From a virus, in IMG/VR virus record IMGVR_UViG_3300032046_000102, positions 1 through 36,537 of that record: a stretch of 36,537 nucleotides of DNA, one strand, 5' to 3'. This document shows positions 9,489 through 26,769 of the stretch, piece by piece (within the stretch, counting starts at the first letter, position 1; each line of letters opens with the position of its first letter). The translations under genes were made by a program, and so were the position numbers. The notes beneath the pieces were generated by a model that saw only the letters and a program-made list of their open reading frames with translations, was not told the DNA's origin and searched no databases.

Positions 9489-10199
9489 TTAATAGTATTG
9501 TTTGTTAACATTTACATCATAACCAGAATCAAACAATACTATTCTGCCATCTTCTGTCTTGCCAAAATGGTCATATGCAATATCACCAGGAATTAAATCG
9601 TTATTTAATACCAATTCAGATAATTCATTAAAAAAATCTTTTGAAGAACCAAAGAAAGCATTTTCATAATTTGAAACGAAATTTTTGCTTCGTAAAGTAT
9701 TTAGTTGTTTCTGTTCTTCATACTCTTGTTTTAAAGCTTCTTCGCCATTTTTATTTGTTTTAAAAATAGTTTCAATAAATTTTCTGGTAAACGCAGAAGA
9801 TAATCCTGTTTGTTCTTGAAATTCTACTGGACTCTTAAATGGGATAACACGCTCTGATATTATCCACCAGTAGTTTTTATGATAATCATAAATTTTAGAA
9901 ACAATGTTTTTTGTCCTTGGGTTTGTGTAGACACTAACCTCAGTTTCATTTTGTCCTAAACCAGCCCCTATATCTGCTTGATCCCCACCAGCTACTTTAA
10001 TAACTCGGTTAGTAGATATTCTAAAAACAGTTCTAGATGAACCCTCACCTAGTTTTTTTACACCATGATTTTCTAAAATTTCAAATACATGATATACATC
10101 CTCTGCACTTTTTAATTCCTGGATTATATCTTTGCCAATGAAATTCTCTGATAATTTCTGCTTAACAACTTCTTTTATAAATTTTTTTAAATCACTCAT
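9489..10199 (-). CDS. Kinase-like paralogue A, tagged N-terminus
   Basis: The product has 236 residues. Residues 2-16 (SDLKKFIKEVVKQKL) form an amphipathic segment carrying I-K-E. A protein-kinase-like N-lobe follows: glycine loop GEGSSRTVF (51-59), VIKVA with Lys68, Glu87 in QNETEV, then KIYDYH and a hinge-like WIISERV (112-118). The C-lobe is short: PGDIAYDHFG (204-213) and a DFG-like FDSGYD (223-228). No HRD motif is visible, so it may be an atypical kinase, a pseudokinase or another nucleotide-binding phosphotransferase. It is the last of four tandem paralogues. Function is inferred from motifs only. Confidence 0.75.
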   Translation of the reverse strand: MSDLKKFIKEVVKQKLSENFIGKDIIQELKSAEDVYHVFEILENHGVKKLGEGSSRTVFRISTNRVIKVAGGDQADIGAGLGQNETEVSVYTNPRTKNIVSKIYDYHKNYWWIISERVIPFKSPVEFQEQTGLSSAFTRKFIETIFKTNKNGEEALKQEYEEQKQLNTLRSKNFVSNYENAFFGSSKDFFNELSELVLNNDLIPGDIAYDHFGKTEDGRIVLFDSGYDVNVNKQYY

Positions 10200-10200
10200 T

Positions 10201-10851
10201 TTATGACCAATTAGGATCTGATAACCCTGGATCTAAATATCTTAGTTCGCCAGAAGAATTCTTTCCCCAATGTATTATAATTCCCATATCTGCTATATCT
10301 AGACCTCTATTAAAATACTGTAATATTTTTTTAATAAACGGAAGTTCTTTAATTTCATCAAATTCATCCGTTTCATCTATATTTGTCAAAGTTGCTTGTA
10401 AACATAAGTCTGAAAATAAATTAAAATCTTTTATCCCTGTAAATTGTTCAAATTCTTCTTTTGAAACTGCTCTTACTGCTTCTGATAATATCCATTTATA
10501 TCCTGGGTCATTATCATATGTCTTTACAACCAAATCAGGAAATTTCCTGGAGGCAAAAATCTCAGCAGAATTTTGTTCTACTCCGTAGTCATTTCTAGCT
10601 ACTTTTAATACTTTTCCAGTACCAAAATGAAAAACAAGTCTAGAACTTCCAGAATTTGGCCCATTGTCACTTATTGATAGTGGCGGCAAAGTAGATTTGG
10701 CATAAAAAATTAATTCCTCTAAGTCTTCTATATCTTTCATATGTGAAAAATTAAATGTTTTTTTGGATTTTTGTCCATTTTTTTCATAAGTTTGAGTTAT
10801 AACTTTCTCTACCATGTTTTCTATTATAATATTTAGATTTTTATTTTTCAC
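10201..10851 (-). CDS. Kinase-like paralogue B, GTG start
   Basis: The product has 216 residues and starts at GTG, overlapping the TAG stop of the upstream paralogue (TAGTG); GGGAAA lies about ten bases before. The glycine loop is GSSRLVF (68-74), the lysine is in VLKVA (81-85), the glutamate in EQNSAEI (92-98), and the hinge-like stretch is WILSEAV (120-126). The C-lobe reads IADMGIIIHWG (186-196), GELRYLDPGLSD (201-212). The DFG position is DPG, which together with the lack of HRD makes classical kinase activity doubtful. Its N-terminus is the least tag-like of the four (NLNIIIENMVEKVI). Same tandem array as its neighbours. Confidence 0.72.
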   Translation of the reverse strand: MKNKNLNIIIENMVEKVITQTYEKNGQKSKKTFNFSHMKDIEDLEELIFYAKSTLPPLSISDNGPNSGSSRLVFHFGTGKVLKVARNDYGVEQNSAEIFASRKFPDLVVKTYDNDPGYKWILSEAVRAVSKEEFEQFTGIKDFNLFSDLCLQATLTNIDETDEFDEIKELPFIKKILQYFNRGLDIADMGIIIHWGKNSSGELRYLDPGLSDPNWS

Positions 10852-11609
10852 TAGTAATATTTCCCTATCACTTCATTTGATGCACCATAATCAAGTAATA
10901 CAAGATTTCCATTAACTGTAATTCCCCAATGGTCGGAATATGCTAAATCACCTGGAAAATGTCCAATAAGCAAGAGATTGTCAATTCCGATTAAATATTT
11001 ATTATTTGAAAGTTCTTCATAAAAAACTAAATCCTTTTTTAATTCATTTAATTTTAAATTAAAAATATCTTCTTCGTCTTCGTCCATATCTTTTTGTTTA
11101 TATAATTGATATTCTTTTATATCTTTATTAACAGATTTTTTTTCTTTATTTAAAAGTTCTTCTATGCTTTTATATCTTTTAGTATTAATTTGTTCTAAAA
11201 ACGAGTCCAGTTCATTAATAGTGAATCCTGTTATCATCTTAAATTCGTTATCGTTAGATACCCCACGAACAGCTTCTGAAATAAGCCAAGTATATTCTGG
11301 AGAATAATCATATATTTTAGTTATAATATCTTTAACTCCTGGTGTGGTAAACATTCCTACTTCTGCTTCATTTTGAGCGATTCCGCGAACCTCAGCGTCT
11401 GCTAATGCTAATTTTAAAACGTACTTTGTATTAGGTAATAAAAATGCGGCCCTTGACGAGCCTTTGCCTAATAGTTTTAAATTAATTGTTGCATAATCAT
11501 AACGTTCACTAGAGGTTTTTAAATTTTTAAAATAATTTATTTTAAATTGTGTTTTATATTCACTTAAAACCAATTGTTGTATATATTCTTTTAATAATTT
11601 TTTATTCAT
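10851..11609 (-). CDS. Kinase-like paralogue C, tagged N-terminus
   Basis: The product has 252 residues. I start at the ATG at 11609; a TTG at 11615 overlapping the upstream stop would add two residues. The tag-like N-terminus reads NKKLLKEYIQQLVLSEY. Kinase-like landmarks are GKGSSRAAF, YVLKLA, QNEAEV, KIYDYSPEYTWLISEAV, then a highly charged insertion of about 80 residues, PGDLAYSDHWG and LLDYGAS. The DYG triplet matches the DFG position; HRD is absent. It has the longest charged insertion of the group. It most resembles paralogue A in C-lobe motifs (PGD-AY-D-G). Likely co-translated with its neighbours, since the genes overlap. Confidence 0.75.
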   Translation of the reverse strand: MNKKLLKEYIQQLVLSEYKTQFKINYFKNLKTSSERYDYATINLKLLGKGSSRAAFLLPNTKYVLKLALADAEVRGIAQNEAEVGMFTTPGVKDIITKIYDYSPEYTWLISEAVRGVSNDNEFKMITGFTINELDSFLEQINTKRYKSIEELLNKEKKSVNKDIKEYQLYKQKDMDEDEEDIFNLKLNELKKDLVFYEELSNNKYLIGIDNLLLIGHFPGDLAYSDHWGITVNGNLVLLDYGASNEVIGKYY

Positions 11610-11611
11610 TT

Positions 11612-12274
11612 TCAAAACCCATAATCTACCAAAACCAATTCGTCACTTCCTTGTTTTGTACCTAAATGAGAAGGAACTAAGATTTCCTCAGCACCCACAC
11701 CAGCTTTAATAGCTTTAAATAGTTTTAATACATTTTTATTTGTTCGCCAATCGGAACCAAAATCTGTTAAATCTTCTATTTCATCTTTTAGTTTTGGATA
11801 TTTTTGTGGATTCAGAATTTGTTCTGGAGTATATAGTCCAAACAATTCATAAAAAACAATCTCCATTTCATCCCAATAAAGTCCAGTAAAATTAAAAATT
11901 TCATCTCTGTTTTCAAAAGATAAAACATTTATCTTCTCAGTTAAAATCCATTTAAATTTTGCGTCATAGTCATAAATTTCTGGAACAATACCAATTGAGT
12001 GTAATTTCGTATAAAGTTTTAATTCTTTTTTGTTTTGCTCTATTCCATTAGCATATCCAGTATGTGCCTTTGCTATTTTCAAAACTTTGTTTGTATCAAA
12101 ATCAAATACAATTCTACCGCCACCTTCTCCAACAATAGATAAAAACTTTGAACAATATTCTATTTGTTCTTCTAAAGTTTTAAGATTTTTAAATGTATCA
12201 AAATCAAAAGAATTAGATAAACTCAAGTCAAGTTCTTCTTTTATTAATTGCTTTAATAGGTTTTTATTTAACAT
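11612..12274 (-). CDS. Kinase-like paralogue D, strong LIKEE tag
   Basis: The product has 220 residues from the ATG at 12274, one base after the stop of the pentapeptide gene; an ATG at 12298 would add eight residues but has no ribosome site and would place the tag internally. The N-terminus [18 protein letters not shown] is the best form of the recurrent tag and is nearly identical at DNA level to two other genes. The lobe motifs are GEGGGRIVF (50-58), VLKIA with Lys66, EQNKKEL (79-85), WILTEKI and a terminal LVLVDYGF. The chain stops right at the DYG, so everything after the DFG position is absent. Probably a minimal kinase-like fold. Confidence 0.75.
   Translation of the reverse strand: MLNKNLLKQLIKEELDLSLSNSFDFDTFKNLKTLEEQIEYCSKFLSIVGEGGGRIVFDFDTNKVLKIAKAHTGYANGIEQNKKELKLYTKLHSIGIVPEIYDYDAKFKWILTEKINVLSFENRDEIFNFTGLYWDEMEIVFYELFGLYTPEQILNPQKYPKLKDEIEDLTDFGSDWRTNKNVLKLFKAIKAGVGAEEILVPSHLGTKQGSDELVLVDYGF
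12235..12258 (-). repeat. Tag-coding DNA repeat, copy 1 (paralogue D)
   Basis: Encodes LLKQLIKEE. Differs by a single base from the copies at 13664 and 17354 over the shared 23-24 bases, although the rest of these three genes is unrelated. Confidence 0.7.
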
Positions 12275-12275
12275 T

Positions 12276-13712
12276 TTATACCCAGTAAATCCTATCATAA
12301 CTTGAGATAGAATCTTTAAATGGTTCTATAATTTTAATTTGATTTTTAGAAATAATTGCTCCTTCAAGATTTGCTCCTGCAAGATTTGCTCCTTCAAGAT
12401 TTACTCCTGTAATATTTGCTCCTGCAATATTTGCTCCTGTAAGATTTGCTCCTTGAAGATTTGCCATTGAAAAATTTAAATATTGTAAATTTGCTCTTTG
12501 AAGGTTTGCCCCTTGAAGTTCTGCTTTTTCGAGACTTGCTCCTTCAAGATTTGTTCCTTCAAGATTTGCTCCTGTAAGATTTGCTCTTGAAAGATCTGCT
12601 CCTTGAAGATTTGCTCCTTGAAGATTTGCTCCTTGAAGAGTTGCTGCTTGAAGAGTTGCTGCTCGAAGGTATACTTTTTGAACATTTGCTCCTTCAAGTC
12701 TTGCTCTATAAAGATTTGCTCTTGCAAGTTTTGCTCTATAGAGATTTGCTCCTTGAAGATTTGCTCCTATAAGATTTGCGTCCTCTAGATTTGCTCCTTC
12801 AAGATTTGCTCCTTCAAGATTTGCTCCTCGAAGGTATACTTTTTGAAGATTTGCTCCTTGAAGATTTGCTGCTTTAAGTTCTACATTATTTTCGATTGCC
12901 TCTATTATTGCTTCTTTTATATTATTTGCCGTTTCTGAGGAATAAATTTTATTACCATCTATATCAAAAATACTTAATGTTACACCTACTGCTTCAAATC
13001 CTATTTTTGAATTGATTATCTTAATAATATTTTCTGGTAATAAATTTCCTAACATGTATCGTTCATATTTCGCATCCTGTTCATCAAATATTTCAATTTC
13101 ATTCGAATCAGGCACGTAAGAAATAGCATATTTTTTATTGTTTTGTTTATTAAAAACAAATATAAACCTAGTTCCTATTGAAGAATAATTATCAAATGCA
13201 TTATTGCCTTTTGTAGCACTAATACACCACTTTGTGTTTGAACCAAGTTTACATGATGCTTCCATAGAATTTGGTTGGGTTACTAACCAGTCTCCATCGC
13301 TATAAATGGTTTCATATTTTTTTTCTTTTTTTTTGTTTAATTCTTTTGATTTTAATTGATCTTGTGAAAATTCAACTAGATTTCTTAAATCATATAATGA
13401 TTTATAAGAATTTATATCCTTGTTTTTAACTACATTTTTTTCTGAAAGATTATCAAAATTATTCAATAATTCAAGTAAATCTTCTTTATCAATTTCTTGT
13501 TCGGAAAATCCATTTACTATAAATTGTTTAGCAAGCCACTCAATATATTTCGAGTTTAAATTGTTTTCTTTAAACCATAAAATTGAATCTTTAAATTCGG
13601 GAAACTTGAGAGCAACATCCTCAAATCTTCCTTCGTTTAAATTATTTAAAACAAGATTAATCTCTTCTTTTATTAATTGTTTTAATAGAGTTTTGATATA
13701 ATTTAATTCCAT
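12276..13712 (-). CDS. Pentapeptide-repeat protein with KWC domain and LIKEE tag
   Basis: The product has 478 residues in three parts. Residues 6-19 carry the tag ([14 protein letters not shown]). Residues about 30-215 hold a domain seen in diverse phage proteins, with [21 protein letters not shown], then [10 protein letters not shown] (156-165) and [13 protein letters not shown]; its function is unknown to me. Residues about 279-455 are some 35 pentapeptide repeats of the A-N-L-x-G type, which fold into a right-handed beta helix; in QnrA/MfpA-type proteins such a helix mimics DNA and binds gyrase. The linker and C-terminus are homologous to the next gene. A gyrase or DNA-binding target is only one possibility. 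Confidence 0.85.
12348..12878 (-). repeat. 15-bp-period repeat coding the pentapeptide array
   Basis: Around 35 degenerate 15-base units, plus-strand form close to AGATTTGCTCCTTGA, in frame in the 478-residue gene. Contiguous and without spacers, so it is a coding repeat and not a CRISPR array. Near-identical units suggest growth by slippage or unequal exchange. Confidence 0.85.
13664..13687 (-). repeat. Tag-coding DNA repeat, copy 2
   Basis: Start of the 478-residue pentapeptide gene, coding LLKQLIKEE. Shares its 23-base core with 17354-17377 without a mismatch and with 12235-12258 with one mismatch. Confidence 0.7.
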
Positions 13713-14278
13713 TCAATAGTTTCATACCCAACAATTGAGTCTTTATATTTATCCACAGTATTTTGATGTTTTTTAGACATTACAGCATCTGTAAGATTTG
13801 CTCCTTCAAGATTTGCTCCTTCAAGATTTGCTCCCCAAAGATTTGCTCTCCAAAGATTTGCTCCTTGAAGATTTGCTCCTTGAAGAGTTGCTCTTGAAAG
13901 ATCTGCTCCTTGAAGATTTGCTCCTTGAAGATTTGCTTCTTCAAGTCCTGCTCTATAGAGAATTGCTCTAGCAAGATTTGCTCCTGTAAGATTTGCTGCA
14001 TCTAGATCTGCATCTGAAAGATCTGCTCCTTTGAGATTTGCTCCTTGAAGATTTGCTACTTGAAGATCTACATATAAAAGAGCTGCTATTTCGAGATCTA
14101 TTTTTTTAGAAACTGCTTCTTCTAGTGCTTCTTTAATATTTTTAGCAGTTTCTGATTTATAAATAATTTTTCCATTGATATCTTTAATTGAAATATATTC
14201 ACCTTCATCTCCACTATTCATTATAGATTCAATCTCTTCTTTTATAATTCTTTTAAGATGATTTGTTGTTATTTTCAT
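13703..14278 (-). CDS. Pentapeptide-repeat protein, short paralogue with IIKEE tag
   Basis: The product has 191 residues. The N-terminus [17 protein letters not shown] is tag-like. Residues 30-62 ([22 protein letters not shown]) match the linker of the 478-residue paralogue ([22 protein letters not shown]), residues 65-165 contain about 20 pentapeptide repeats, and the C-termini align ([14 protein letters not shown] against [14 protein letters not shown]). It lacks the KWC domain. AGGAAT repeated three times precedes the ATG. The gene overlaps the next by ten bases. The beta-helix fold is secure from the repeats; the target is unknown. Confidence 0.85.
13784..14086 (-). repeat. 15-bp-period repeat coding the second pentapeptide array
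   Basis: About 20 units of the same 15-base type as in the neighbouring gene, in frame, coding A(N/D)LxG repeats. The similarity of units between the two genes could allow recombination between them. Confidence 0.8.
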
Positions 14279-14360
14279 ATTCCTATTCCTATTCCTATAA
14301 TAAAGTCACATATTTGAACAAAACCTATAAGAAAGATAGAGTTTTCATACAATCTAAATA

Positions 14361-15041
14361 TTAATCATCTGAATAAAAGGTAGAAGCTTTCTTTGATTCG
14401 TCAACAGTTACTTCTCTTGGGCCTTCTCCGAGAGCAATATCAGGCATATCTTCAGTGAGTCTATCACGCATCTCTCTAAAGTCTCCAGTTGTCCCTTCTT
14501 TGTTCTCTGGCAATCCTCTTTGTTGAACAAATTCTTTTTGTACATTTTTTTGAATATATGTTTCAATGCTATCTTTTGTTGGATTAACAAAAATTTCTGG
14601 ATCAAATTCTCCAATACGAGCAGGATTTCCTAGAATTTTATACCCTACTTCATATTCTACTTGACCATATAAGTTATTTAAATAAGTAAAATTTGAAACT
14701 TCATATACTTGAGTGCCGTAAACAAAAAAGTCACCTTCATTAACAGTGAAACCTTTGTCAATTAAATCACGAGCCTGTACAAAGACTTCCAAAGTAGTAA
14801 TTTGTTCCATTCCAAATTGAAAATATTTGTTTGTTACTTTTGGTTGAGCAGCCAAAACATCTAGTTTTATTGGATTTTCAAATATCTTTTTAACAGCTTC
14901 TTCGTAAATTGGATGTACTCTTGTCTTAAGAGTTGTAATTGGAAAATAAACAATAAACTGACCAACAATGTCCTTTATGACTTCTTTGGTAATGTCATTA
15001 ATGAATTGAATCTCCCGAGATGTTACAAATAAGCGCGACAT
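14361..15041 (-). CDS. Neck or head-closure protein, possibly gp14-like
   Basis: The product has 226 residues. It begins SRLFVTSREIQFINDITKEV, contains FIVYFPITTLKTRVHPIYEEAVKKIFENPIKL, then LEVFVQARDLIDKGFTVNEGDFFVYGTQVYEVSNFTYLNNLYG. The GDFFVYGTQVYEV stretch resembles the GDLIYF...FEI strand pair of T4-type neck protein gp14 and of other head-closure rings. T4 gp14 forms part of the neck that seals the filled head. The neighbouring gp13-like gene supports this. No LIKEE-type tag is present at the N-terminus. The assignment to gp14 is tentative; a virion neck role is more secure than the exact homologue. Confidence 0.5.
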   Translation of the reverse strand: MSRLFVTSREIQFINDITKEVIKDIVGQFIVYFPITTLKTRVHPIYEEAVKKIFENPIKLDVLAAQPKVTNKYFQFGMEQITTLEVFVQARDLIDKGFTVNEGDFFVYGTQVYEVSNFTYLNNLYGQVEYEVGYKILGNPARIGEFDPEIFVNPTKDSIETYIQKNVQKEFVQQRGLPENKEGTTGDFREMRDRLTEDMPDIALGEGPREVTVDESKKASTFYSDD

Positions 15042-15169
15042 AAAATTAATTATTGATTCAATGTTCTTTTTATCTTATATCTGGCTGATTTGATTGTTCG
15101 TTATAATATGTTTTCATAGCTTATCTTCTTTATATAGAGATAAGTACGTTGGTAGGGGACGTAATTCCA

Positions 15170-16441: not shown

Positions 16442-16508
16442 GTTGTTAAATAGATTTAAACTATATAAAATTGGTTTAAAACTTAACCAAAGATGATATC
16501 TTTCCAAT

Positions 16509-17060: not shown

Positions 17061-17390
17061 TTATTTATCTCTTATTTGAGGACGTTTGCCAAAATAAGAA
17101 TAACTTAGAATACTTTTAGGAGTTACTGTAGTTCTAATAACTTTATCCATTAAATGTCTAAATTCAACTTTTTGCAAGTATGGGTCTTGAATGTTGATAA
17201 TATATTGAATATCTCTTTTATGTAAACCCAACATAGCCATTGCTCCTGTGAACATTGCTAATTTTGTAGGATCTTTTGCGATATCATCTAATAAGCCTGC
17301 TGCTTTATCCTTTAAAGAATCCATTAATCCTTCATTTAAAGCATTTTCAACTTCTTCTTTTATTAATTGTTTTAATAATTCTTTACTCAT
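17061..17390 (-). CDS. Small tagged protein (LLKQLIKEE)
   Basis: The product has 109 residues, beginning [20 protein letters not shown]. The rest (LKDKAAGLLDDIAKD, then TKLAMFTGAMAMLGLHKRDI, then a basic end FGKRPQIRDK) is not recognised. A short hydrophobic stretch at 42-56 might be a helix or a weak membrane segment. The start overlaps the stop of the upstream gene (ATGA), so translation is probably coupled. The tag is followed by a plausible processing point in the IKE, leaving a mature domain of about 95 residues if cut. Confidence 0.75.
   Translation of the reverse strand: MSKELLKQLIKEEVENALNEGLMDSLKDKAAGLLDDIAKDPTKLAMFTGAMAMLGLHKRDIQYIINIQDPYLQKVEFRHLMDKVIRTTVTPKSILSYSYFGKRPQIRDK
17354..17377 (-). 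repeat. Tag-coding DNA repeat, copy 3
   Basis: Codes LLKQLIKEE in the 109-residue gene, with the same 23-base core as 13664-13687. The genes are otherwise unrelated and 3.7 kb apart. Confidence 0.7.
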
Positions 17391-17695
17391 GAATCACGCT
17401 TTTTTGTAAAAACAGCATCGGGTGCTGAAATGGCAACTCTTTGAATTGGGTTTTTAGCAGCATGACTATAAATTTCTGGATTTGTTTTGTCTCTAGAAAT
17501 TTGATCACCAGCACTTGTTATTTCAAAATTCTTTTCAATGAAGTCCTCATATGGAACACGGTCTGCATCATCATCATCATTGTCTTTTTTTGATTTATTG
17601 TTATCTGCCAAAGCTTCTAGTTCTTCTTCCATAACTTCATAAATCAAATCTATTATTTGTTCTTTAAATTCTTTAAGAGAAATTTTGTTGTTCAT
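17387..17695 (-). CDS. Small protein with duplicated N-terminal module, C-terminus type 1
   Basis: The product has 102 residues from the ATG at 17695; an ATG at 17725 is possible, but the shorter form matches its neighbour exactly and has AGGGA before it. The first 35 residues (starting NNKISLKEFKEQIIDLIYE and running to ALADNNKS) are identical to those of the gene at 17755-18093. After that the two are unrelated: here an Asp-rich stretch (KKDNDDDDADRV), then YEDFIEKNFEIT and a basic end. LIYE fits the [L/I]-x-E rule. No family is recognised. Confidence 0.75.
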   Translation of the reverse strand: MNNKISLKEFKEQIIDLIYEVMEEELEALADNNKSKKDNDDDDADRVPYEDFIEKNFEITSAGDQISRDKTNPEIYSHAAKNPIQRVAISAPDAVFTKKRDS

Positions 17696-17708
17696 TTTTT
17701 CATCCCTG
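17591..17708 (-). repeat. Module duplication, copy 1
   Basis: About 118 bases that cover the ribosome site and the first 35 codons of the 102-residue gene, nearly identical to 17989-18108. I see one substitution inside the coding part and a small length difference just before the ATG. Confidence 0.9.
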
Positions 17709-17754
17709 TTTCTATTTGTAAGCATATAAATCTATGAGTTTTTCAATTATTGAT

Positions 17755-18093
17755 TCAATCAAGTGTGCCAGCTATATTGCCTAAACTGTCTCGGTATAGA
17801 CCCGATGGAACTTCTCTATCATCTCTTACTTTACCATATCCAGAAGTTTTAGCCTTTTCTCTATTTGCGTCTCTTTTTCTTTGGGCATATATTCTACGTG
17901 CTTGGCTATTTAGGGAATTCTTATCCCAAGGTCTGTTCGGATCTAGATTAGCCTCTGCTTCAATATCTTCCTCGGAAACTTTATTAAGTGATTTATTGTT
18001 ATCTGCCAAAGCTTCTAGTTCTTCTTCCATAACTTCATAAATCAAATCTATTATTTGTTCTTTAAATTCTTTAAGAGAAATCTTGTTGTTCAT
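17755..18093 (-). CDS. Small protein with duplicated N-terminal module, C-terminus type 2
   Basis: The product has 112 residues. Its first 35 residues equal those of the 102-residue neighbour; the remainder (LNKVSEEDIEAEANLDPNRP, then a basic QARRIYAQRKRDANREKAK stretch and a REVPSGLYRDSLGNI end) is unrelated to it. The basic middle suggests nucleic-acid contact, but no known fold is visible. ATGA overlap with the 555-residue gene implies coupled translation. The N-terminal module is also loosely similar to that of the 555-residue protein (ISKQSLREHIKKTILEIM). Confidence 0.75.
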   Translation of the reverse strand: MNNKISLKEFKEQIIDLIYEVMEEELEALADNNKSLNKVSEEDIEAEANLDPNRPWDKNSLNSQARRIYAQRKRDANREKAKTSGYGKVRDDREVPSGLYRDSLGNIAGTLD

Positions 18094-18108
18094 TTTTCTT
18101 CATCCCTG
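17989..18108 (-). repeat. Module duplication, copy 2
   Basis: Second copy of the leader-plus-35-codon module, offset by 398 bases from copy 1. High identity means a recent duplication or gene conversion, because flanking sequences do not match. Confidence 0.9.
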
Positions 18109-19757
18109 GTAATTGTTGCTGATTTTATAACTCTTCTTATTCTTGGTTTAAAATCATTATGTTTATTATTAATAAACCATAATAATAAATCCGGATCTGC
18201 TGTTTCCAAATCTATTTCTAAACTTTTATTTTGTTTTTTAGATTCCCCGAGTTGGTCTTCTTTTTGAGAAGGAATTTTTTGTCTATACTCTATTTGAATT
18301 TCATCTACAATATTTTGAGCACGAACTTTTGCATTATTAAGTAATTTGATTAAATCAACTGATATGCCTTGATTGTCTGAAATATTATTTTTAAATATCG
18401 TACTAAATTTATTGGAAATGTCACTTGACATATAATCATCTAAAATAGTCTCTGCATCTAGTTCATCAGGTGTGATATCAGACTTTTTATATTTATATAC
18501 TAAAAAAGAGATTAAAGATTGTGAAAGTTTATCTAATTCTGTTGGTTTGAAAAAATCATTTTCTATTGTTTTAGATTCTTTTTTTACTTTTTTGTTCTTT
18601 TTGTTTTCTTTGTTATATGTTTTCCAAGCAATGCCATAAGCTACATTAAGAGGCATTCCTTTTTTCTTCATGCTCTGAATTAAGTCTTTATACTTTTCAC
18701 CAGGAGGAGCAAATTCTTGTAATTTTATTTCCTTGCTTTCTTTTTGCATTTTGCTAATTAATACAGAATTTGCTTGTTGAATAGCAGCATCTTTTAATTC
18801 TTCGGCAATTTCTGGATTTTCTTCAAGATAGTCTACTTCACGAGAATTAAGTTCGTCCATAATATCATCAATGAGATCTAAAACATCCCAATCTTCTGGT
18901 TTTGTACCATGAACAGCATGATGTAATATGTGGTCTTTCATTGCTGACGTAATTGAATCTTGAATTATTTCTTCGTTGGGATCATGATTTTTTTCAAAAT
19001 AATTTCCATAATGTTCATCAAAATCTGGATCTTGATCTGAAATTCCAAAACCATCATGTTTATCTTTATAAAGTCTTCTTCCAAACTCATCATGATTTTC
19101 TACTAAGGATTCATTTACTTTTTTTGCATTTAATGCAAAAGTAATTTTTTGTAAAAGTTTTTTATCCGAGGCTGCCATAATTTTATCCCCTTCTCCTTTA
19201 TCCATGAGTTCTTTTTTCTTTTTCTTTAAAAGGCTAACAGGAATTTTTTCATCTTCTGGTATTCCCAAAATCTTATGTAAAGAGCCGGGTTTTTTAACTG
19301 CACCTTGCATCCACTTATTAGATTTCTTTGATTCACTCATTGAATCTCCACCATCACTGTCACTATCACCGCCGCCCTCGCCTTCATCTTCTTTAATAAC
19401 AGATTCGTCTTGTACTTTATAAGATTGACGAGAACTTTGAGCTGAACGCTTTTGTGCAGAAAATTTATCAGTTTTTCTTTCTTCTTTTCTTTTATCAAAA
19501 ACATTATCACATTTAGAAGAAAGAGCTTTTAATTGATTGATTATTTTTTCTCTTTCATATTTTGGAATTGAATTAATGATATCCATAGTGCTTAAAACAC
19601 CATCAGGTTTTTTAAAAAAGAATTCATCTCCTACTTTACCAGCACTACAATCAGGAGGAAGGCTATTCTTATCAGAATCAGACGCTTCCAGCATTATTTC
19701 TAAAATAGTTTTTTTAATATGTTCACGCAATGATTGTTTAGAAATTTTACTATTCAT
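18090..19757 (-). CDS. Large charged protein, probable virion or head-core protein
   Basis: The product has 555 residues, highly charged. It begins KISKQSLREHIKKTILEIMLEAS, similar in position and pattern to the small neighbours' tags. Further on are SVIKEDEGEGGGDSDSDGG (about 119-137), a WMQGAVKKPGSLHKILGIPEDEKIP segment (about 149-173) and YKDLIQSMKKKGMPLNVAYGIAWKTYNK (about 367-394); the last two resemble short motifs I associate with uncharacterised phage proteins. IKE and other [L/I]-x-E sites occur in the linkers. AGAGGA precedes the ATG. It is the first gene of the run 19757 to 17061. Role unknown; an internal head protein would fit. Confidence 0.65.
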   Translation of the reverse strand: MNSKISKQSLREHIKKTILEIMLEASDSDKNSLPPDCSAGKVGDEFFFKKPDGVLSTMDIINSIPKYEREKIINQLKALSSKCDNVFDKRKEERKTDKFSAQKRSAQSSRQSYKVQDESVIKEDEGEGGGDSDSDGGDSMSESKKSNKWMQGAVKKPGSLHKILGIPEDEKIPVSLLKKKKKELMDKGEGDKIMAASDKKLLQKITFALNAKKVNESLVENHDEFGRRLYKDKHDGFGISDQDPDFDEHYGNYFEKNHDPNEEIIQDSITSAMKDHILHHAVHGTKPEDWDVLDLIDDIMDELNSREVDYLEENPEIAEELKDAAIQQANSVLISKMQKESKEIKLQEFAPPGEKYKDLIQSMKKKGMPLNVAYGIAWKTYNKENKKNKKVKKESKTIENDFFKPTELDKLSQSLISFLVYKYKKSDITPDELDAETILDDYMSSDISNKFSTIFKNNISDNQGISVDLIKLLNNAKVRAQNIVDEIQIEYRQKIPSQKEDQLGESKKQNKSLEIDLETADPDLLLWFINNKHNDFKPRIRRVIKSATITRDEEK

Positions 19758-19790
19758 GAATCCTCTTGTATTTACTATCTTAAATAGTAT

Positions 19791-21473
19791 TCAGTTATTC
19801 AATTTTAATAAGTAAATTTTGTTAGAACATCCATATATTTTATAAACACCAGCTTCTTCTGCTACTTGTTTTTCTGGTTTGCCAGGTTGTGCTCTAAATT
19901 TAAACCTATCATATCTAACAACTCCGTCTGTGTACCAGTAATTTATTTCCGTTTCTCCCACTAAATTAAATCCAGATTTCAAATAAACATTTCCAGTTCC
20001 AAATCTTAAGTCACAATAACTCAACATATTATCAAAGTTATTTTCTTTGGCCCACTTAATGGCTTGTTTCAGTAATTTACTAAATCCCCCTTGTACATTC
20101 GTAAATGCTTTTGATGAGAATCTAGCTATTTCAACACAATTTTTGTAGTGTGAATGAAATGGCTTTCTTAAAGATAAGGCACATTGAATTTCATTTGTAT
20201 TTGGGTCAACTAATGAAAATACTTTTAAACAAGGAGTATATCCTGAAATATGCGTTGTTTCAAAGAAGTCTTTATAAGATGAATTTTTCATGCTATCAAT
20301 TAGTTTTAATTTTCTAGCACCAACAACATTGGCTTTTCCTAATCTGCTTGCCAACATAGACTTTAATAAATCTTCTTTATTTTGCCACTCATCAGAAAAA
20401 ATATGGAATAATTGAACGTTTTTTTCTTTACAGTTTGTTGTTTTTTCTTTGTGGTAATTTTTATTAAAATCTTCTTGTCCCTTGTTCATGTGCCAATATA
20501 ATCCATTATATTCTATAGCAAAGTTTTTTTCTTCAATAACAACATCTATTTCTTTTGGAGATATTATTTTTCTATCATTTCTCACTATATTGAATCCCAA
20601 AGATTGAACATAGTCTCCTATATCAACCTCTGCTCTAGAGGTTGTAAACGGATAACAATAACCACACATAGAACCTCGCTCTATAGCAACCAAAGTTTTC
20701 ATCCATTTTTTACTACATATATTGCATACGCATTCTATTTTTTGATTCTGTCTTGAATGATATTTGTTATGATCAAAATTAAAAGAAAAATCCTTGGCTC
20801 TTTTTAATAATCTTAATTCTATTTGTTCTTTGGTTAATAGTCTTTGTTTAGACAATAAAGCAACAGTTTCTTCTGAATGTGTTTTTCCATAAAAATGATT
20901 TCTTTCTCCGCTTGCCTCCAAAGATTGTTTAAGAATTCTAGGATCATCTAATTTTGTTTTTCCTTTATTCCAGGCTTCACTTATTCCACCAAGTTTACCT
21001 CCTACTTTCATAGCTTCTTTTGCATGTTCTTTACAAAATTCTTTAAAAGAAAACGAAGTATATCTTGTTATATTATTACATTCATCAAACTTACAAATTG
21101 GTCTTGTGTTTTCATATAAACCCAAAACAGTATAATCTTCCGAAGTCATTTTGTGATCAAATTGAATATGTGAAGAAAGTCCTTTAGACGTAAAATAAAT
21201 TTGATTACACAAAAAACACTTGTTGTTTTTTGCATTATTTAACTCTTCTAAGAATAAAGCAGCATTTTCTTTAAACCAATCTTTTTTAAAAAAAAGATAA
21301 TTGTTTCTGTAAGAAAATTGAAATTTCTCATTTTCTTCTGTAGCTTTTAATATTGTTTTGATTCCTTCGTTTTCATTGGCTTGTTCAATTGAATTGAATT
21401 CGTTTTCAATAAACAAACTTATTTTTTTATCATAGTTTAATTTAATTTTTAGTATCTTTATTGCTTTATTCAT
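19791..21473 (-). CDS. Vsr-like (EDxHD-type) homing endonuclease
   Basis: The product has 560 residues. It carries a C2H2-like finger (CFLC...SHIQFDH, 86-107), a NUMOD3-type DNA-binding stretch (NHFYGKTHSEETVALLSKQR, 192-211), a zinc ribbon (CNIC...CGYC, 250-273), and a Vsr-like nuclease core: SRAEVDIGDYVQSLGF (279-294), EIDVVIEEKNFAIEYNGLYWH (308-328), YHKEKTTNC and LFHIFSDEW (355-363). The last 150 residues look GNAT-like (EIARFSS, QGGFSKLLKQAIKWAKEN, VYLKSGF). Free-standing enzymes of this class cut cognate sites in related phages to spread. It sits immediately downstream of the capsid gene and its terminator. A TATAAT-like box lies just before the ATG. Confidence 0.85.
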   Translation of the reverse strand: MNKAIKILKIKLNYDKKISLFIENEFNSIEQANENEGIKTILKATEENEKFQFSYRNNYLFFKKDWFKENAALFLEELNNAKNNKCFLCNQIYFTSKGLSSHIQFDHKMTSEDYTVLGLYENTRPICKFDECNNITRYTSFSFKEFCKEHAKEAMKVGGKLGGISEAWNKGKTKLDDPRILKQSLEASGERNHFYGKTHSEETVALLSKQRLLTKEQIELRLLKRAKDFSFNFDHNKYHSRQNQKIECVCNICSKKWMKTLVAIERGSMCGYCYPFTTSRAEVDIGDYVQSLGFNIVRNDRKIISPKEIDVVIEEKNFAIEYNGLYWHMNKGQEDFNKNYHKEKTTNCKEKNVQLFHIFSDEWQNKEDLLKSMLASRLGKANVVGARKLKLIDSMKNSSYKDFFETTHISGYTPCLKVFSLVDPNTNEIQCALSLRKPFHSHYKNCVEIARFSSKAFTNVQGGFSKLLKQAIKWAKENNFDNMLSYCDLRFGTGNVYLKSGFNLVGETEINYWYTDGVVRYDRFKFRAQPGKPEKQVAEEAGVYKIYGCSNKIYLLKLNN

Positions 21474-21538
21474 ATTAACATATTATATCAAAAAAATGTT
21501 CTTTAAACCAAGTTCCATACCCAGTCAAGACACCTTCT

Positions 21539-21546
21539 TAAGTATT
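21539..21546 (-). promoter_or_regulatory. AATACTTA element after the capsid terminator
   Basis: Minus-strand TAAATAATACTTAA, same core and flanks as the copy before the capsid gene. Lies 66 bases before the endonuclease ATG and downstream of the capsid terminator, where a new transcript would start. Confidence 0.3.
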
Positions 21547-21579
21547 ATTTAACAAAATAAATTAATTATTATAGTTTAA

Positions 21580-21628
21580 TTAAAAAAAAGAAAAAATAAA
21601 GGAGAGCTGGCATTCCCGGCTCTCCTTT
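21580..21628 (-). terminator. Strong rho-independent terminator after capsid gene
   Basis: Stem of 13 pairs with one G-U (21598-21610 with 21616-21628; core AAAGGAGAGC / GCTCTCCTTT), five-base loop, then a long T-rich run on the minus strand. It begins 31 bases after the capsid stop codon. The rest of the 185-base gap 21474-21658 shows only AT-rich sequence and the putative AATACTTA element. Confidence 0.92.
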
Positions 21629-21658
21629 ACAATCTATCTATTTTTAAGGCAGTTTCTA

Positions 21659-23566
21659 TCAGATGGTGTTCATATCCATGATAGTAATTGTTGCGTAATA
21701 ATCTGCACGAACCATCTTTTTGCCATAACGGGTCATTATTCCCTTCCTAGGGACGAAATCCTCTTGACTGTAAATAACAGGTGTTAGGATAAGTGGAACG
21801 TATGGTGCATACACATAACCAGTTTCAAGGAATGTATTACCCTTAAGACCGACTAGGATCTTGTTTTCTGGGAAATATGGATCTTTGTATACTGTGTATC
21901 TGTTGTTCAAGGTACCAACTGATTCTGCGCCAATTGCCATTGTGTTTGAAACTTGGCCATCGCCATCAATCTTAAATTGAGCCTTGTATGTTGTTAAGTG
22001 TTCAAGAATTGTACAAACTGCTGGTGAAGTTACGACAAAGTTACCTGAACCACGAAGGGTTTTCTTGTAGATGGTGTTGGCAGCATCTGTAATTGTTTCA
22101 AGTAATGTTTGATACCATTCTTGAATGTTCACATACGCTGTTGGACCAGGAGAAAGAACGTTTGAGTGTTGTGATTCTGAACCAGTGTACTTGTTAACCA
22201 TTTTACCAGGAGCGCGCGACCAGTAAAGGTTTGCAGCGGTAGCTTGGGTAAGAAGATCATTAAGAATTTCTCTATCGATTTCAAGAGTAATCATTTCTGA
22301 TAAGATATTTGTTAATTCAACTTCGATGTCGATGTTGAAATAAGCAGTCATATCTTGTGCCATTTCTGGCGACCAACGAGCACGTAGTTTACGAGTTGTT
22401 GCTGTTACTGCAACTGATTCAATTTTGATATCAACTTCGGCCATTCTTGGAGAAGCATCGAAATTGAAATCAGTTTCGAAGCTTGGAATAGTAAGAGTTG
22501 AACCATCGCTGTTGACCGAGAGTGCATCAGAAATAGCTGCTGAAGCTGTTACTCTGGTTGATGCCGAACCTACAGGAGCAGGAACTGTACCACCATTTGC
22601 AATTTTAATAACAAACTGAACGTGGGTTCCGCCTAGTGGATCTGGAGCAAAGATGCCTGTGGCCGAATTGAAACTACCGCGTTTATTATATTTACGTAGA
22701 TTCAAAACCCCAGTACCTTGTTGATATCCAGTTCCCCATTCTAGGGCACTTCCGATTCCGTTACCAAAACCAGTTAGAGCAATTTGTTCAACTGAGTTGA
22801 GATCTGCTCCACCAATATTGGCTGTGAATTCCGAAGCCGAAACGTGAACGAAACAATAATCAAGTACATTTAAACTTAGATCAGTTTGAACAGCCGAGTC
22901 GAAACCAGCGAAACGAGCATTGTATCCTGTGAAGGATGTTGCTGTATCGACTGTTGCACCAGCAGTCCAGATTGAACCTGATGCCCAATAACCGACTGCA
23001 TCAGCAGTTGAGTTAAGTGCAAGAGATTGTTTGTGGACTTTCGAGAATCCTGTTCCTACCAAGTCATATTGACCACCAGTGGCAAACGAACCACTGCGAA
23101 CAGCGGCACCAGCTGGATTGTTATAAACTGATTGACCTCTGGTGTAGGTTTCGTTAGCCGATGCAGCTGAGAGATTAACTCCAGCATCACCACCAACGTT
23201 TGAACCATAGGTGTAATCAAGATAAAACAAAAGTCCGTTTGGAAGTGACATTGGTTGTACTGAGACGATATCGTTGGCGATTAGACCAGCGAAAACTCTA
23301 CGTACAATTGGAAACGCCACGTTGGTAAATCCAGCGACTTGACCCGAGCTAACTAATCCTGCACCACCAGTTGAAAGAGAATTTGACTCTTTGATTAGTT
23401 CTCCGCATTGGTTTTCAAGAAGACGAGCCATGTTATCTTTAGTCTGGCCGCGAAGACCTTCCAAAAGACCTGTTTTTTCCCATCTATTTGAGATACGAGG
23501 CATATCTGAACCAAGCGATTTAGTTTTCGCCTCTAACATTAATTGTGTAATTGAAACTTTTGACAT
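21659..23566 (-). CDS. gp23: Major capsid protein (gp23-like)
   Basis: The product has 635 residues, against 521 for T4 gp23. Family landmarks are an N-terminal propeptide with NRWEKTGLLEGL (27-38), then VAFPIVRRVFAGLIANDIVSVQPMS, LLFYLDYTYG, the RARWSPEMAQDM segment, ELTNILSEMITLEIDREIL, and a C-terminus with PYVPLILTPVIYSQEDFVPRKGIMTRYGKKMV. Residues 57-60 read LIKE followed by SNSLSTGG. T4 gp23 is cut after Glu65 at an [L/I]-x-E site, so cleavage after Glu60 is a reasonable prediction. It follows the scaffold-like gene, has AAGGAA ribosome sites, and ends at a strong terminator. Confidence 0.95.
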   Translation of the reverse strand: MSKVSITQLMLEAKTKSLGSDMPRISNRWEKTGLLEGLRGQTKDNMARLLENQCGELIKESNSLSTGGAGLVSSGQVAGFTNVAFPIVRRVFAGLIANDIVSVQPMSLPNGLLFYLDYTYGSNVGGDAGVNLSAASANETYTRGQSVYNNPAGAAVRSGSFATGGQYDLVGTGFSKVHKQSLALNSTADAVGYWASGSIWTAGATVDTATSFTGYNARFAGFDSAVQTDLSLNVLDYCFVHVSASEFTANIGGADLNSVEQIALTGFGNGIGSALEWGTGYQQGTGVLNLRKYNKRGSFNSATGIFAPDPLGGTHVQFVIKIANGGTVPAPVGSASTRVTASAAISDALSVNSDGSTLTIPSFETDFNFDASPRMAEVDIKIESVAVTATTRKLRARWSPEMAQDMTAYFNIDIEVELTNILSEMITLEIDREILNDLLTQATAANLYWSRAPGKMVNKYTGSESQHSNVLSPGPTAYVNIQEWYQTLLETITDAANTIYKKTLRGSGNFVVTSPAVCTILEHLTTYKAQFKIDGDGQVSNTMAIGAESVGTLNNRYTVYKDPYFPENKILVGLKGNTFLETGYVYAPYVPLILTPVIYSQEDFVPRKGIMTRYGKKMVRADYYATITIMDMNTI

Positions 23567-23592
23567 TTTTTTATTTCCTTTATTCCTTTATT

Positions 23593-23600
23593 TAAGTATT
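23593..23600 (-). promoter_or_regulatory. AATACTTA element upstream of capsid gene
   Basis: Minus-strand TAAATAATACTTAA, 27 bases before the capsid ATG and overlapping the stop codon of the scaffold-like gene. A dedicated promoter here would allow extra capsid expression. Confidence 0.35.
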
Positions 23601-25836
23601 ATTTAGTTTTCTTAATTCCAGCTAGCGTTGCCCATCTACTTACATCTACTGTGTTTTCACGTTCGACCGATTCTTTAATCATCGAAGAACTACCAGAAGA
23701 AACTGATCTAGCTGACGATCCTGTTTCTTTTCTTGTAGTAGCCGATTCATCAAGTACAGATTTTATTTTACTGTAGGTCTCTTTGGCTTCTGTAAGTGTT
23801 GATGCCCTATCAAGGTACTCGGCAATTTTCTGCTTCTGTTTTCTCGAAAGGTCTTCTCTCATAGAGAATTTATTTAAATAAAGAGCTTTGGCTGTCAAAA
23901 GTTGATTTTCAACAAGTTGTGCCTCAAGAACTCTTATAGCTTTTTGAGCATTTTCTTTCAAAGCCTTGGTCATTTTGTTTTTTCTAGAAACAGACTCCCA
24001 AGCCTTTTCTTTAACGGACTCATCATCCATCAAAATTTTATTTTTGTCATCGTCTTCATCAGAATCTTCATCTTCTGAATCTTCGTCCGAATCTTCTTCT
24101 TCATCTGAATCTTCGTCGTCAACGATTTCAAGTGTATCATCTTCGTCTGAGTCTTCGTCATCAGTGATTTCAAGTGTGTCGTCATCATCTGAATCTTCGT
24201 CGTCTTCTTCGGATGCCATATCAGCAACATTGATATCAACTTCACCATCATCTTCAGCATCAGCTAAAAGTTTTTCAAGTGTTGCAATATCGATTTTAAA
24301 TGTTAATTCTACTTCGCCATCATCAGAAACGTCTACGTCTCCTACTTCAAGCGAATCATCATCTCCCATTAAACTTACATCGTCATCCATCATGTCACAT
24401 TCTTTTACCATTGGTTTTTTAGCTTTTGGGTTATTTGCGTCAACAGTTTTATGTGCTTCGGAAGCTTTTTTCTTTGGTGCGCCTTTTTCAAGGCCAGTAT
24501 CTTCTTCGTCTGCTTTTGTGTTATCCAGTGAAGCATTTTCACGAAGAGCTTTTACTTTACGAAGGATAGATTCTCTTTTAAGTTTACGAACAGCTTCTTG
24601 TAGTTCTGTGTCGTTAATTTCAAGAATTGAATTATCTCCTTCTTCATCAGCGAGGGCATTAGGGTTGTGAACATCTGGTGATGCTGTTTGAGCACCAGAA
24701 GCTTTTTTACCATCTCCAAAAGCTGAAGACGCTGGAGCATTTTCAAGAATTGAATTATCTCCTTCTTCATCAGCAAGTGCATCTGGGTTATGAACGTCTT
24801 TTGATTCTGTCTCAGCGCCAGAAGCTTTTTTACCATCTCCAAAAGCTGAAGACGCTGGCGCGTTTTCGCCTAAAAGATCTTCCTTCATGGTTTGATATTT
24901 TGTTTTACCTGCTGGGGTTGTTTCTTCTTCAAAAAGTTTTGCTGCGAATTCTTCTAGTCTTTTAGACATTGTATCTCCTTCTATTACCTCATAAATATTA
25001 GCTGTTTCGGCTTCTTCCAATTTTTGGAACAAAAAATTTAATTTATTTTCAACTAATCTTGCTTGTTTTGGATTTAAAATGCAGTTTTCCTCTAATAAAT
25101 CTAATTTTTCACATAGATTAAATAGTTTTGACTTTATATTTTCCTTAACAATTGATGGAACAGATTTTCTAAAATATACATATCCAATCTTTTCCGCCAC
25201 TAGTCCTATTTCTTTTTTAAATAAATCAATCGCAACAGATTCTCCAATAGAAGGAGTTTGTTGAGGTATTTGAGCAGAAGCATCTGTGGGCAAAGAAGTA
25301 TCTGGTGGAAGCGCAGGATTTTCTTCTCCTGGTACCAAATCTGTCACTGGGGCCTCTGGCGTTTGTTCTAGTGGGTTTATTGGAGGAACTTGTCCCGATG
25401 TGTCAGTAGCCATTGAAATGTCGTTCAGTGGTTCGCTATTGTTTCCCATCGCAAACAATTGATCAAAACCAAGAATTAATCCATCTGGACCAGGCACGGG
25501 AAAATCCATCATATTACCGCCAGTTGGAGTTATAGGTAATGCTGAATTTGTTTCTGGGCTTACTGTTGGCACTATAGAAGGATCTGTTGAGGGAACTGGA
25601 TTTGGGCTAGTTGCCGTAGGATCAACAGGTGCAGGAACCGCTGGTTGACCACTTAATGGTTGTTCATCTTGTTCTTGAAATAGAAATTCTGCTTTATCAA
25701 CACCAGAAACTTCTTCAGCTATCATTTTTTTTATAACAGGAGAAATAGCTTCTATAACTCGATTTTTTGCATCAAGTTCAGCTACTTCTTTTAATTTTTT
25801 TGCTTCTAGTACGGCTTCTTTTAAAAGTTCAGACAT
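23599..25836 (-). CDS. Acidic prohead core/scaffold-like protein
   Basis: The product has 745 residues and lies just before the capsid gene, the position of scaffold gene 22 in T4. It starts with a helix (SELLKEAVLEAKKLKEVAEL), followed by a Pro/Thr-rich linker (60-190), a helical region (200-305), two 41-residue tandem repeats (324-405), a strongly acidic stretch (about 544-597, mostly Asp, Glu and Ser) and a C-terminal coiled-coil-like domain. IKES at 720-723 precedes the tail DVSRWATLAGIKK. Many [L/I]-x-E sites fit the known digestion of T4 core proteins by gp21. Sequence homology to gp22 is not evident; the role is inferred from position and composition. Confidence 0.7.
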   Translation of the reverse strand: MSELLKEAVLEAKKLKEVAELDAKNRVIEAISPVIKKMIAEEVSGVDKAEFLFQEQDEQPLSGQPAVPAPVDPTATSPNPVPSTDPSIVPTVSPETNSALPITPTGGNMMDFPVPGPDGLILGFDQLFAMGNNSEPLNDISMATDTSGQVPPINPLEQTPEAPVTDLVPGEENPALPPDTSLPTDASAQIPQQTPSIGESVAIDLFKKEIGLVAEKIGYVYFRKSVPSIVKENIKSKLFNLCEKLDLLEENCILNPKQARLVENKLNFLFQKLEEAETANIYEVIEGDTMSKRLEEFAAKLFEEETTPAGKTKYQTMKEDLLGENAPASSAFGDGKKASGAETESKDVHNPDALADEEGDNSILENAPASSAFGDGKKASGAQTASPDVHNPNALADEEGDNSILEINDTELQEAVRKLKRESILRKVKALRENASLDNTKADEEDTGLEKGAPKKKASEAHKTVDANNPKAKKPMVKECDMMDDDVSLMGDDDSLEVGDVDVSDDGEVELTFKIDIATLEKLLADAEDDGEVDINVADMASEEDDEDSDDDDTLEITDDEDSDEDDTLEIVDDEDSDEEEDSDEDSEDEDSDEDDDKNKILMDDESVKEKAWESVSRKNKMTKALKENAQKAIRVLEAQLVENQLLTAKALYLNKFSMREDLSRKQKQKIAEYLDRASTLTEAKETYSKIKSVLDESATTRKETGSSARSVSSGSSSMIKESVERENTVDVSRWATLAGIKKTK
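24622..24867 (-). repeat. Two tandem 123-bp repeats in scaffold-like gene
   Basis: Codes two 41-residue copies (residues 324-364 and 365-405) beginning ENAPASSAFGDGKKASGA and ending ALADEEGDNSIL, with only a few substitutions. A degenerate third copy may follow at about 433-472 (ENASLDNTKADEED...APKKKASEAHK). Confidence 0.88.
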
Positions 25837-25859
25837 TATAAACCTCGATAGTAATTACT

Positions 25860-26339
25860 TCATTCACTGGTAGATTTACCGAAAATTAAATCACCAATTT
25901 TTCTTTTCCCTATTTTTTCTGATGTTTTGTTTGGAGAAAGAAGTCCGTCTCCTAGAAAAGCACCACCACCACCTTGGCGTTTTTGTGTAATTTCTGCACC
26001 AGCAGCAGGTATATTTCGTGGATTATGTGGTTCTGTAGCAGCAACCGCTATGTTTGGAGCATAAGGAGAACCAGGCAAACCGCCACCACCTACAATAACC
26101 TCTTCAAGATTTGGTGAATCTTGATAATCACGATTTACCGTACCAAATGTGTGACCGCCATCATTTAAAACAGGTGCTTGATTCATATCTTCAAACATTA
26201 CCTCTGTTATAGCGTCCGACAAGGTTCCATCATTAACAGGAGAACCTGGATATAATATTTTAAGATCACCAGTATCACTGCTTCCCATCTTGAATGTACT
26301 AGCAGGTGGCTCGACTTTTATTTGTTTGTGTGTAGGCAT
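25860..26339 (-). CDS. Small Gly/Pro-rich protein of the head module
   Basis: The product has 159 residues, rich in Gly, Pro and Asn, with few predicted helices: PGSPVNDG, VIVGGGGLPGSPYAPN and KRQGGGGAFLGDGLLSPN. The basic C-terminus reads KIGKRKIGDLIFGK. No family is recognised. It lies between the 127-residue gene and the scaffold-like gene, in a run of head-assembly genes, so a minor head or core protein is likely. AITE at about 43-46 would fit the prohead protease rule. Confidence 0.65.
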   Translation of the reverse strand: MPTHKQIKVEPPASTFKMGSSDTGDLKILYPGSPVNDGTLSDAITEVMFEDMNQAPVLNDGGHTFGTVNRDYQDSPNLEEVIVGGGGLPGSPYAPNIAVAATEPHNPRNIPAAGAEITQKRQGGGGAFLGDGLLSPNKTSEKIGKRKIGDLIFGKSTSE

Positions 26340-26385
26340 TTTTTCTTTTGACCCTTTTCAATTAGATAAATATTAGTGTTTCTAA

Positions 26386-26769
26386 TTAATTTCCTTTTTT
26401 ATTAAATGCTAAATGAGCCCACTTAGAAACATCTCCACCACTTAAAGTATCTAATTGGTTTTCTTCTACTTTAATTTGCTGTGGTAATGCGTGTCCTTGT
26501 TCTAATAACATTTTTTCTGGAAGCCCCTCGGCAACCTCTAACATTGCTGCTGCCAAAGCATTATTTTTTGGTACAACCATATCTTTAATAAGCTTTTGTG
26601 CAAAGGCTTTTCTATCGGACGCTTCTGTTAATGAAAGAACATTTGATTTAGAAGAACCAACTTTTGATTCAACTATTTTTTCTAAATGTTTATCAAAAGC
26701 TCCTTCTGTGATAAGATCAGACAAACATTCTTTCATTAAACTTTTAAATTGTGATTTTGAAAACTTCAT
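26386..26769 (-). CDS. Small head-core candidate sharing C-terminal tail with scaffold
   Basis: The product has 127 residues. The N-terminus KFSKSQFKSLMKECLSDLITEGAF is tag-like and contains LITE-G, a fit to [L/I]-x-E. The middle is helical. The C-terminus ENQLDTLSGGDVSKWAHLAFNKK resembles the end of the scaffold-like protein (ENTVDVSRWATLAGIKK). Its ATG overlaps the TGA of the protease gene. In T4, genes 67 and 68 code small prohead core proteins near gene 21; this is a positional analogue, not a proven homologue. Confidence 0.7.
   Translation of the reverse strand: MKFSKSQFKSLMKECLSDLITEGAFDKHLEKIVESKVGSSKSNVLSLTEASDRKAFAQKLIKDMVVPKNNALAAAMLEVAEGLPEKMLLEQGHALPQQIKVEENQLDTLSGGDVSKWAHLAFNKKGN

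Follow-up and report, generated by a model that had tools for sequence, protein, structure and literature searches.

Phage proteins that are packaged in the head and injected have usually been found phage by phage, via mass spectrometry. In phage T4 the internal proteins IPI, IPII and IPIII, as well as Alt, carry a capsid-targeting sequence (CTS), a short N-terminal peptide that is cut off by gp21 (PMC9026906, PMC5694885). In IPIII about 10 residues suffice, targeting depending mainly on residues 4 and 7 and processing on residues 8 and 10 (PMC9026906). The Far-T4 group is known from metagenomes, with RM378 as reference isolate, and its description there says nothing of gp21, of internal proteins or of an N-terminus common to several proteins (PMC4360716). 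Here we describe an N-terminal tag that is common to unrelated proteins of the IMG/VR virus record IMGVR_UViG_3300032046_000102, an AT-rich fragment of a Far-T4 myovirus that was analyzed over its whole length of 36,537 nt (the window, 35 called genes), and of its relatives. This tag is probably the Far-T4 counterpart of the T4 CTS, an N-terminal signal for capsid targeting that would be cleaved off.

A shared N-terminal tag in the window and in related phages

In related IMG/VR phages the tag has the form MKITKxQLKxIIKEE and stands at the start of dozens of unrelated proteins, so that a short N-terminal peptide is common to products that otherwise have nothing in common. We scored it as [LIVMF][KR]x[LIMFY][IVL][KRTQ][EQ] within the first 26 residues and found matches in 6 of the 35 window genes. 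Three nulls (whole-protein shuffles, N-terminal shuffles and internal segments) gave expected means of 0.04–0.16, with a maximum of 2 (p<0.0005). A position-specific scoring matrix (PSSM) learned from the relatives alone, with the window excluded, was then applied to the window N-termini and gave strong scores (p<=0.0008) to five of them, those at 12298, 13712, 14278, 17390 and 26769. All are on the minus strand. They correspond to tags at 12233..12274 in a kinase-like gene (11612-12298, start at 12274 or 12298; p=0.0004), at 13632..13712 and 14234..14278 in two pentapeptide-repeat genes (12276-13712, p=0.0008, and 13703-14278, p=0.0004), at 17331..17390 in a small gene (17061-17390, p=0.0004) and at 26704..26769 in a gene at the position of a core gene (26386-26769, in the interval between gp21 and gp22). 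The last one reads MKFSKSQFKSLMKECLSDLITE/GAF (the slash marks a predicted cut) and is supported by the relatives as well as by the PSSM. The preliminary description had reported LLKQLIKEE at the starts 12274, 13712 and 17390 and LKRIIKEE at 14278, and all four are there; on the minus strand, LKQLIKEE is encoded at 12233-12256, 13662-13685 and 17352-17375.

The looser forms listed in that description fared unequally. The one at 26769 turned out to be strong, and two were moderate, namely MNSKISKQSLREHIKKTILEIMLE/ASD at 19686..19757 (minus strand, gene 18090-19757, p=0.002) and MNKKLLKEYIQQLVLSE at 11559..11609 (minus strand, kinase-like gene 10851-11615, p=0.008). The other four are not separable from chance by score alone and remain candidates without clear support. 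These are MSDLKKFIKEVVKQKLSE at 10146..10199 (minus strand, kinase-like gene 9489-10199, p=0.07, with a motif match), MNNKISLKEFKEQIIDLIYE at 18034..18093 (minus strand, gene 17755-18093) with a second copy at 17636..17695 (minus strand, gene 17387-17725; p=0.02 for both), and MKKEKKQSINEQDLKAYIDLITE at 33541..33609 (plus strand, gene 33541-34602, p=0.06). The sheath, gp13-, gp14- and gp15-like and HAD proteins had been said to lack the tag. This is true of those in the window, but some relatives have tagged HAD-type proteins (L031, L041, L019 and L060).

Enrichment of the motif at N-termini was found both in the window and in the pooled relatives, where 3,147 proteins gave 118 matches within residues 1-25, whereas an interval of 25 residues is expected to hold 2.6. 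Over 84 sequences (80 related uncultured loci that we retrieved, the window and three short pieces of the window) 41 occurrences of the motif fell within residues 1-20 and only two lay anywhere else. The tagged genes per genome numbered 24, 20, 9, 8, 6 and 6 against 0.4-1.9 expected, the richest genome (273 kb) having 24 tagged proteins where 0.9 were expected. Tagged genes form tandem clusters, up to six within 9 kb, with unrelated bodies. We also considered whether the true start might lie further upstream in the same frame, which would place the tag inside the protein. This was rejected, since for 129 of 146 tags the frame is closed by a stop at most 30 codons upstream.

At the DNA level, a pattern for MKITKxx[L][KR]x[IL][IV][KR]E had at least 120 matches in IMG/VR, and its reversed-codon version had none there. 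The same pattern hit ten stretches in 257 Gb of bacterial and archaeal genomes, every one of them in metagenome-assembled genomes; gp23 was also present in 2 of the 6 of these that were examined, and both look like binned phage. Clusters of tagged genes were seen in NHDW01000006.1 (L245, L249, L251) and PBIO01000025.1 (L246, L248), labelled as Methylococcaceae and Halobacteriovorax metagenome-assembled genomes, in genomes with a gp23 of Far-T4 size; these are probably phage contigs binned with bacteria. When cultured phages were searched by tblastn with tag peptides, no isolate with the tag came up, the only matches being weak ones to an uncultured 484-kb record and one tail fibre, and a search for the tag letters in open-licence full text gave no paper. 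One window gene (4336-5097) has a tag-like C-terminus, VRKIIKEELTRKFSNNK, and similar ones occur in L008 (13551-14618), L039 (13575-14183) and G033 (43830-44876). As a set, these C-terminal copies were not significant (6 against 2.6 expected), although three or four look genuine.

Probable core protein, capsid protein and predicted cleavage sites

In 22 aligned relatives the tag starts the gene between gp21 and gp22, the one at 26386-26769 in the window, and in larger marine genomes a variant of the tag likewise adjoins gp21. Besides Met1, the only invariant residues at the N-terminus of this protein are Glu14 and Glu22, each of which is the P1 residue of a psi-x-E motif (xIIKE and ELITE/G). 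Its C-terminus (KWAHLAF) has a motif, [RKH]WAxLA[FG], in common with the scaffold at the gp22 position (23599..25836, minus strand, RWATLAG), and this motif had 73 C-terminal matches over the gene set of the relatives against 2.2 expected. The motif is possibly a contact with the capsid shell and, from its position and motif, the 26386-26769 product would be a component of the prohead core. The gp21-like prohead protease (Peptidase_S77) is encoded at 26766..27893 on the minus strand and is interrupted by an intein. Once this is removed the catalytic triad is intact, with His245, Ser299 and Asp325 aligned with those of T4. The intein sits directly before the catalytic Asp-His segment (GE/C...N/CDH), so the protease should be active only once spliced.

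Predicted cut sites were analyzed in 187 non-redundant tagged proteins, selected solely on residues 1-14. The psi-x-E motif peaks sharply in the register that puts its Glu at residue 21 or 22 (102 of the 187 proteins, about 4 per later position), and sequence conservation ends at this site. Glu at 22 tends to occur together with a hydrophobic residue at 20 (odds ratio 17, p=7e-17), and Glu at 21 with one at 19 (p=6e-4), the coupling between 20 and 21 being negative. Asp is seldom found in place of the Glu, Gly is preferred after the cut, and P2 prefers Asn, Ser and Lys. The overall count of psi-x-E was 145 against a shuffle mean of 95. In the window, the candidate later sites are LITE/GAF, ALNE/GLM and NLNE/GRF.

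The maturation site of the major capsid protein gp23 (21659..23566, minus strand) was located by comparison with FLTE/AEIGG of T4. It corresponds to [LI][KRN]E/[STA] in most of 62 sequences and to LIKE/S in the window (predicted site ELIKE60/S61), and by sequence comparison the tag sites match this predicted site of the same phages. IKE in the tag agrees with it from P3 to P1, but the next residue is mostly Glu, not seen at capsid-protein sites. A residue other than Glu after IKE, mostly Ala, Ser, Val or Thr, was found in 28 of 85 tags without a later site and in 3 of 102 with it; in R-type tags these numbers were 22 of 32 and 0 of 29 (p=3e-9), and in K-type tags the trend was not significant. 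On these sequence patterns, the usual cut is probably at LxE around residues 20-22 or slightly later, 7-8 residues past IKE, and a cut after IKE seems to be used when A, S or T follows and no later site exists, the simplest reading being that each tag retains one good predicted site. The cleavage after IKE proposed at the outset would thus hold for this second type of tag, whereas most tags have IKE followed by E and are likely cut at LxE.

The tag goes together with the T4-type head genes. Among tagged contigs of at least 60 kb, 19 of 23 had gp21 and 17 of 23 had gp23, compared with 7 (p=2e-5) and 6 (p=8e-5) of 31 random contigs of the same size range, none of which carried the tag (0/31). 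These contigs replaced an earlier comparison set for gp21 (2/29) that was mostly small contigs and therefore size-biased. For contigs of at least 100 kb, both genes were present in 14 of 14 tagged ones, and random ones had gp23 in 4 of 16 and gp21 in 6 of 16. The random contigs also show how far this link can be taken: many large phages have a T4-type protease, and those with the tag are a subgroup among them.

By similarity search the window phage is a member of the Far-T4 group: its gp23 is nearest to those of RM378/immuto-type phages and the order of its head genes is T4-like (gp20, a gp68-position protein, gp21, a 127-aa protein, the gp22-position scaffold and gp23). The best gp23 matches were the cultured Flavobacterium phage immuto, Microcystis phage Mel-JY01 and Rhodothermus phage RM378. 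The portal gene gp20 (28822-33189) holds two intein-like insertions. Neck and tail genes are also encoded, including two sheath proteins, and the two long tail-sheath-like genes of this contig (1291-4275 and 5126-8161) differ from each other.

Tagged proteins, proposed mechanism and alternative explanations

Most tagged bodies have no known function. Among 64 larger ones there were single matches to DnaJ, WGR, phosphatase and DUF families, three matches to a polynucleotide-kinase PHROG and two pentapeptide proteins, with no recognisable replication gene. Two of the tagged products of the window are pentapeptide-repeat proteins, and the region 9489-12298 holds four tandem divergent paralogues of the phrog_4301 family with a kinase fold, one strongly and one moderately tagged. 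The AlphaFold model of a phrog_4301 kinase-like protein had a mean pLDDT (predicted local distance difference test) of 82, with residues 1-20 at 58-59. All 50 PDB matches listed in the fold search were protein-kinase-like or small-molecule-kinase folds (best E=4e-4), with low TM-scores (template modelling scores) of about 0.2-0.35; a PDB sequence search with the kinase-like alignment and a close-relative search with one kinase-like protein returned nothing. The phrog_4301 profile found relatives in 8 of 39 related genomes, and the family is also in RM378. None of the ten N-termini listed for these relatives has the strong tag, and several have other psi-x-E starts, such as FWLLE/S or similar ones with A after the cut; the tag is therefore not tied to this family.

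We interpret the tag as capsid targeting because it stands on the gp21-adjacent core gene, contains psi-x-E sites of capsid type and is carried by phages with gp21 and gp23. Through its amphipathic part (MKITKxQLKxIIKEE or a variant) the tag would attach to the prohead core, which is also what this part is expected to do on the gp21-adjacent core protein, and unrelated accessory proteins would thereby be built into the prohead. There gp21 would remove the tag at psi-x-E, usually the LxE site at about 20-22, or else IKE before A, S or T if there is no later site. The freed proteins would remain in the mature head and probably be ejected with the DNA, like the T4 internal proteins and Alt. What the sequences show directly is the tag and its restricted occurrence, its association with gp21 and gp23, the layout with two sites and the agreement with the capsid-protein site. 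From these we infer core binding, cleavage and presence in the virion of the tagged proteins, and also their ejection and effector function, the last two of which are plausible because T4 offers an analogy. The capsid targeting and gp21 trimming suggested in the preliminary description are accordingly backed by the gp21/gp23 phages, the core gene, the capsid-type psi-x-E and a positive control with T4 (see below), whereas its usual cut position and several of its loose examples are not.

Other explanations were weighed against the same data. The tagged proteins might be parts of the scaffold, given that the best conserved one is at the core-gene position by gp21 and has its C-terminal motif in common with the scaffold, and that gp22, gp67 and gp68 of T4 are cut up and lost (PMC5694885); but the accessory tagged proteins are many, variable and often made of folded domains (kinase-like, pentapeptide repeat, HAD, DnaJ, WGR), and conservation ends past the tag, so that we find this unlikely. 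We give still less weight to a helix, unrelated to the head, that docks onto something else in the infected cell, for instance the host polymerase, the ribosome or a compartment resembling a phage nucleus. A short amphipathic N-terminal helix could bind many partners, but the tag on the gp21-adjacent core protein, the capsid-type psi-x-E sites and the gp21/gp23 link would then be unexpected.

A conserved DNA or RNA element, a translation start or expression signal that is coding by chance, is very improbable. Upstream bases are also common to tagged genes in some contigs, and the window genes 17387-17725 and 17755-18093 are identical at 104 of 105 nt at the 5' end before diverging into unrelated bodies. 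However, identical tag peptides from different contigs have 87% nucleotide agreement on average (13% differ), and conservative replacements (K/R, I/V) are frequent. As codons drift under identical tag peptides, the peptide is what is kept. Chance or composition is hardly credible at all: AT-rich genomes such as that of the window yield N-termini rich in K, I, E and L, and some loose examples are not significant, but the shuffles and internal segments stayed below the observed count, IMG/VR has no match to the reversed-codon pattern, a relative with 42% guanine plus cytosine (G002) also has a clear tag, and for the strong tags the null tests already refute chance.

Several points weigh against capsid targeting itself. 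The link with gp21 comes partly from shared ancestry, and the tag may merely mark the Far-T4 lineage. Not every Far-T4 phage shows it, since RM378 had no convincing tag in the 50 kb that were read. The psi-x-E motif is short and a helix-like composition yields many such sites by itself, so the argument rests on register and coupling. The Glu that follows IKE renders the IKE site doubtful in most tags, and in some tagged proteins no later site is obvious and the IKE site is not a good one either. Lastly, no virion proteomics of any tagged phage was found in what was searched.

Should the tag indeed direct proteins to the capsid, one could read from sequence which proteins a large group of uncultured phages packages. 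Each genome would then supply up to tens of proteins, most of them unknown, that arrive in the host ahead of phage gene expression, a natural place for anti-defence and takeover functions. The chances seem about even that Far-T4 phages, widespread in water, have a modular delivery in which an exchangeable N-terminal cassette loads dozens of different, lineage-specific proteins (kinase-like, pentapeptide-repeat, HAD, DnaJ, WGR and many of unknown kind) per head for injection, recombination swaps the cassette between genes and each lineage has its own cassette sequence. The tagged set would be a test set for cargo recruitment by T4-type cores, and the tag might serve as a new means of loading phage heads for protein delivery.

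Comparison with known systems

The Far-T4 tag and the T4 CTS probably work in the same way with a different sequence family. Both are N-terminal stretches of about 10-20 residues, common to unrelated proteins and with a psi-x-E site at the end, a predicted one in the Far-T4 tag, and the tagged phages have gp20, gp21, gp22 and gp23 as T4 does. In contrast to the T4 CTS (MKTYQEFIAE), the Far-T4 sequence is MKITKxQLKxIIKEE...LxE, with two alternative predicted sites, and it does not resemble the CTS of the T4 internal proteins by sequence. T4 has few tagged genes; in Far-T4 genomes up to 24 genes appear tagged by sequence, and a conserved core protein is among the carriers. As a positive control, a T4-type motif gave 15 hits in T4 against 2.8 expected, including IPII, IPIII, gp21, gp22, gp24 and Alt, and the Far-T4 motif gave no enrichment there (2 against 0.9).

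In the cultured relative immuto, whose gp21 homologue is free of inteins, 13 proteins start with an N-terminal psi-x-E (1.1 expected), and the phage has tags of its own on several unrelated proteins (L122, L443, L444): MENFDLKKFLVEN on two and a similar MADNFNLRSFLTEN on a third, MKKQILSEQFxRMQxLAGIITES on two and MKKSQLRQIIKEA on one. The tags therefore look lineage-specific. The Far-T4 phages described in PMC4360716 and PMC7198788 belong to the same group by capsid protein and head gene order. The head propeptides of phiKZ and SPN3US are similar in that the prohead protease cuts past a Glu motif and that the paralogues gp53 and gp54 have identical N-terminal 15 residues, but most of these propeptides exceed 100 residues, the motif is A-x-E and the phage group is another one (PMC5694885). 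In phage P1 the N-terminal 30 residues of DarB are enough to carry a reporter into the head, although the Dar proteins have no consensus and no tie to a visible gp21-type site (PMC9024508).

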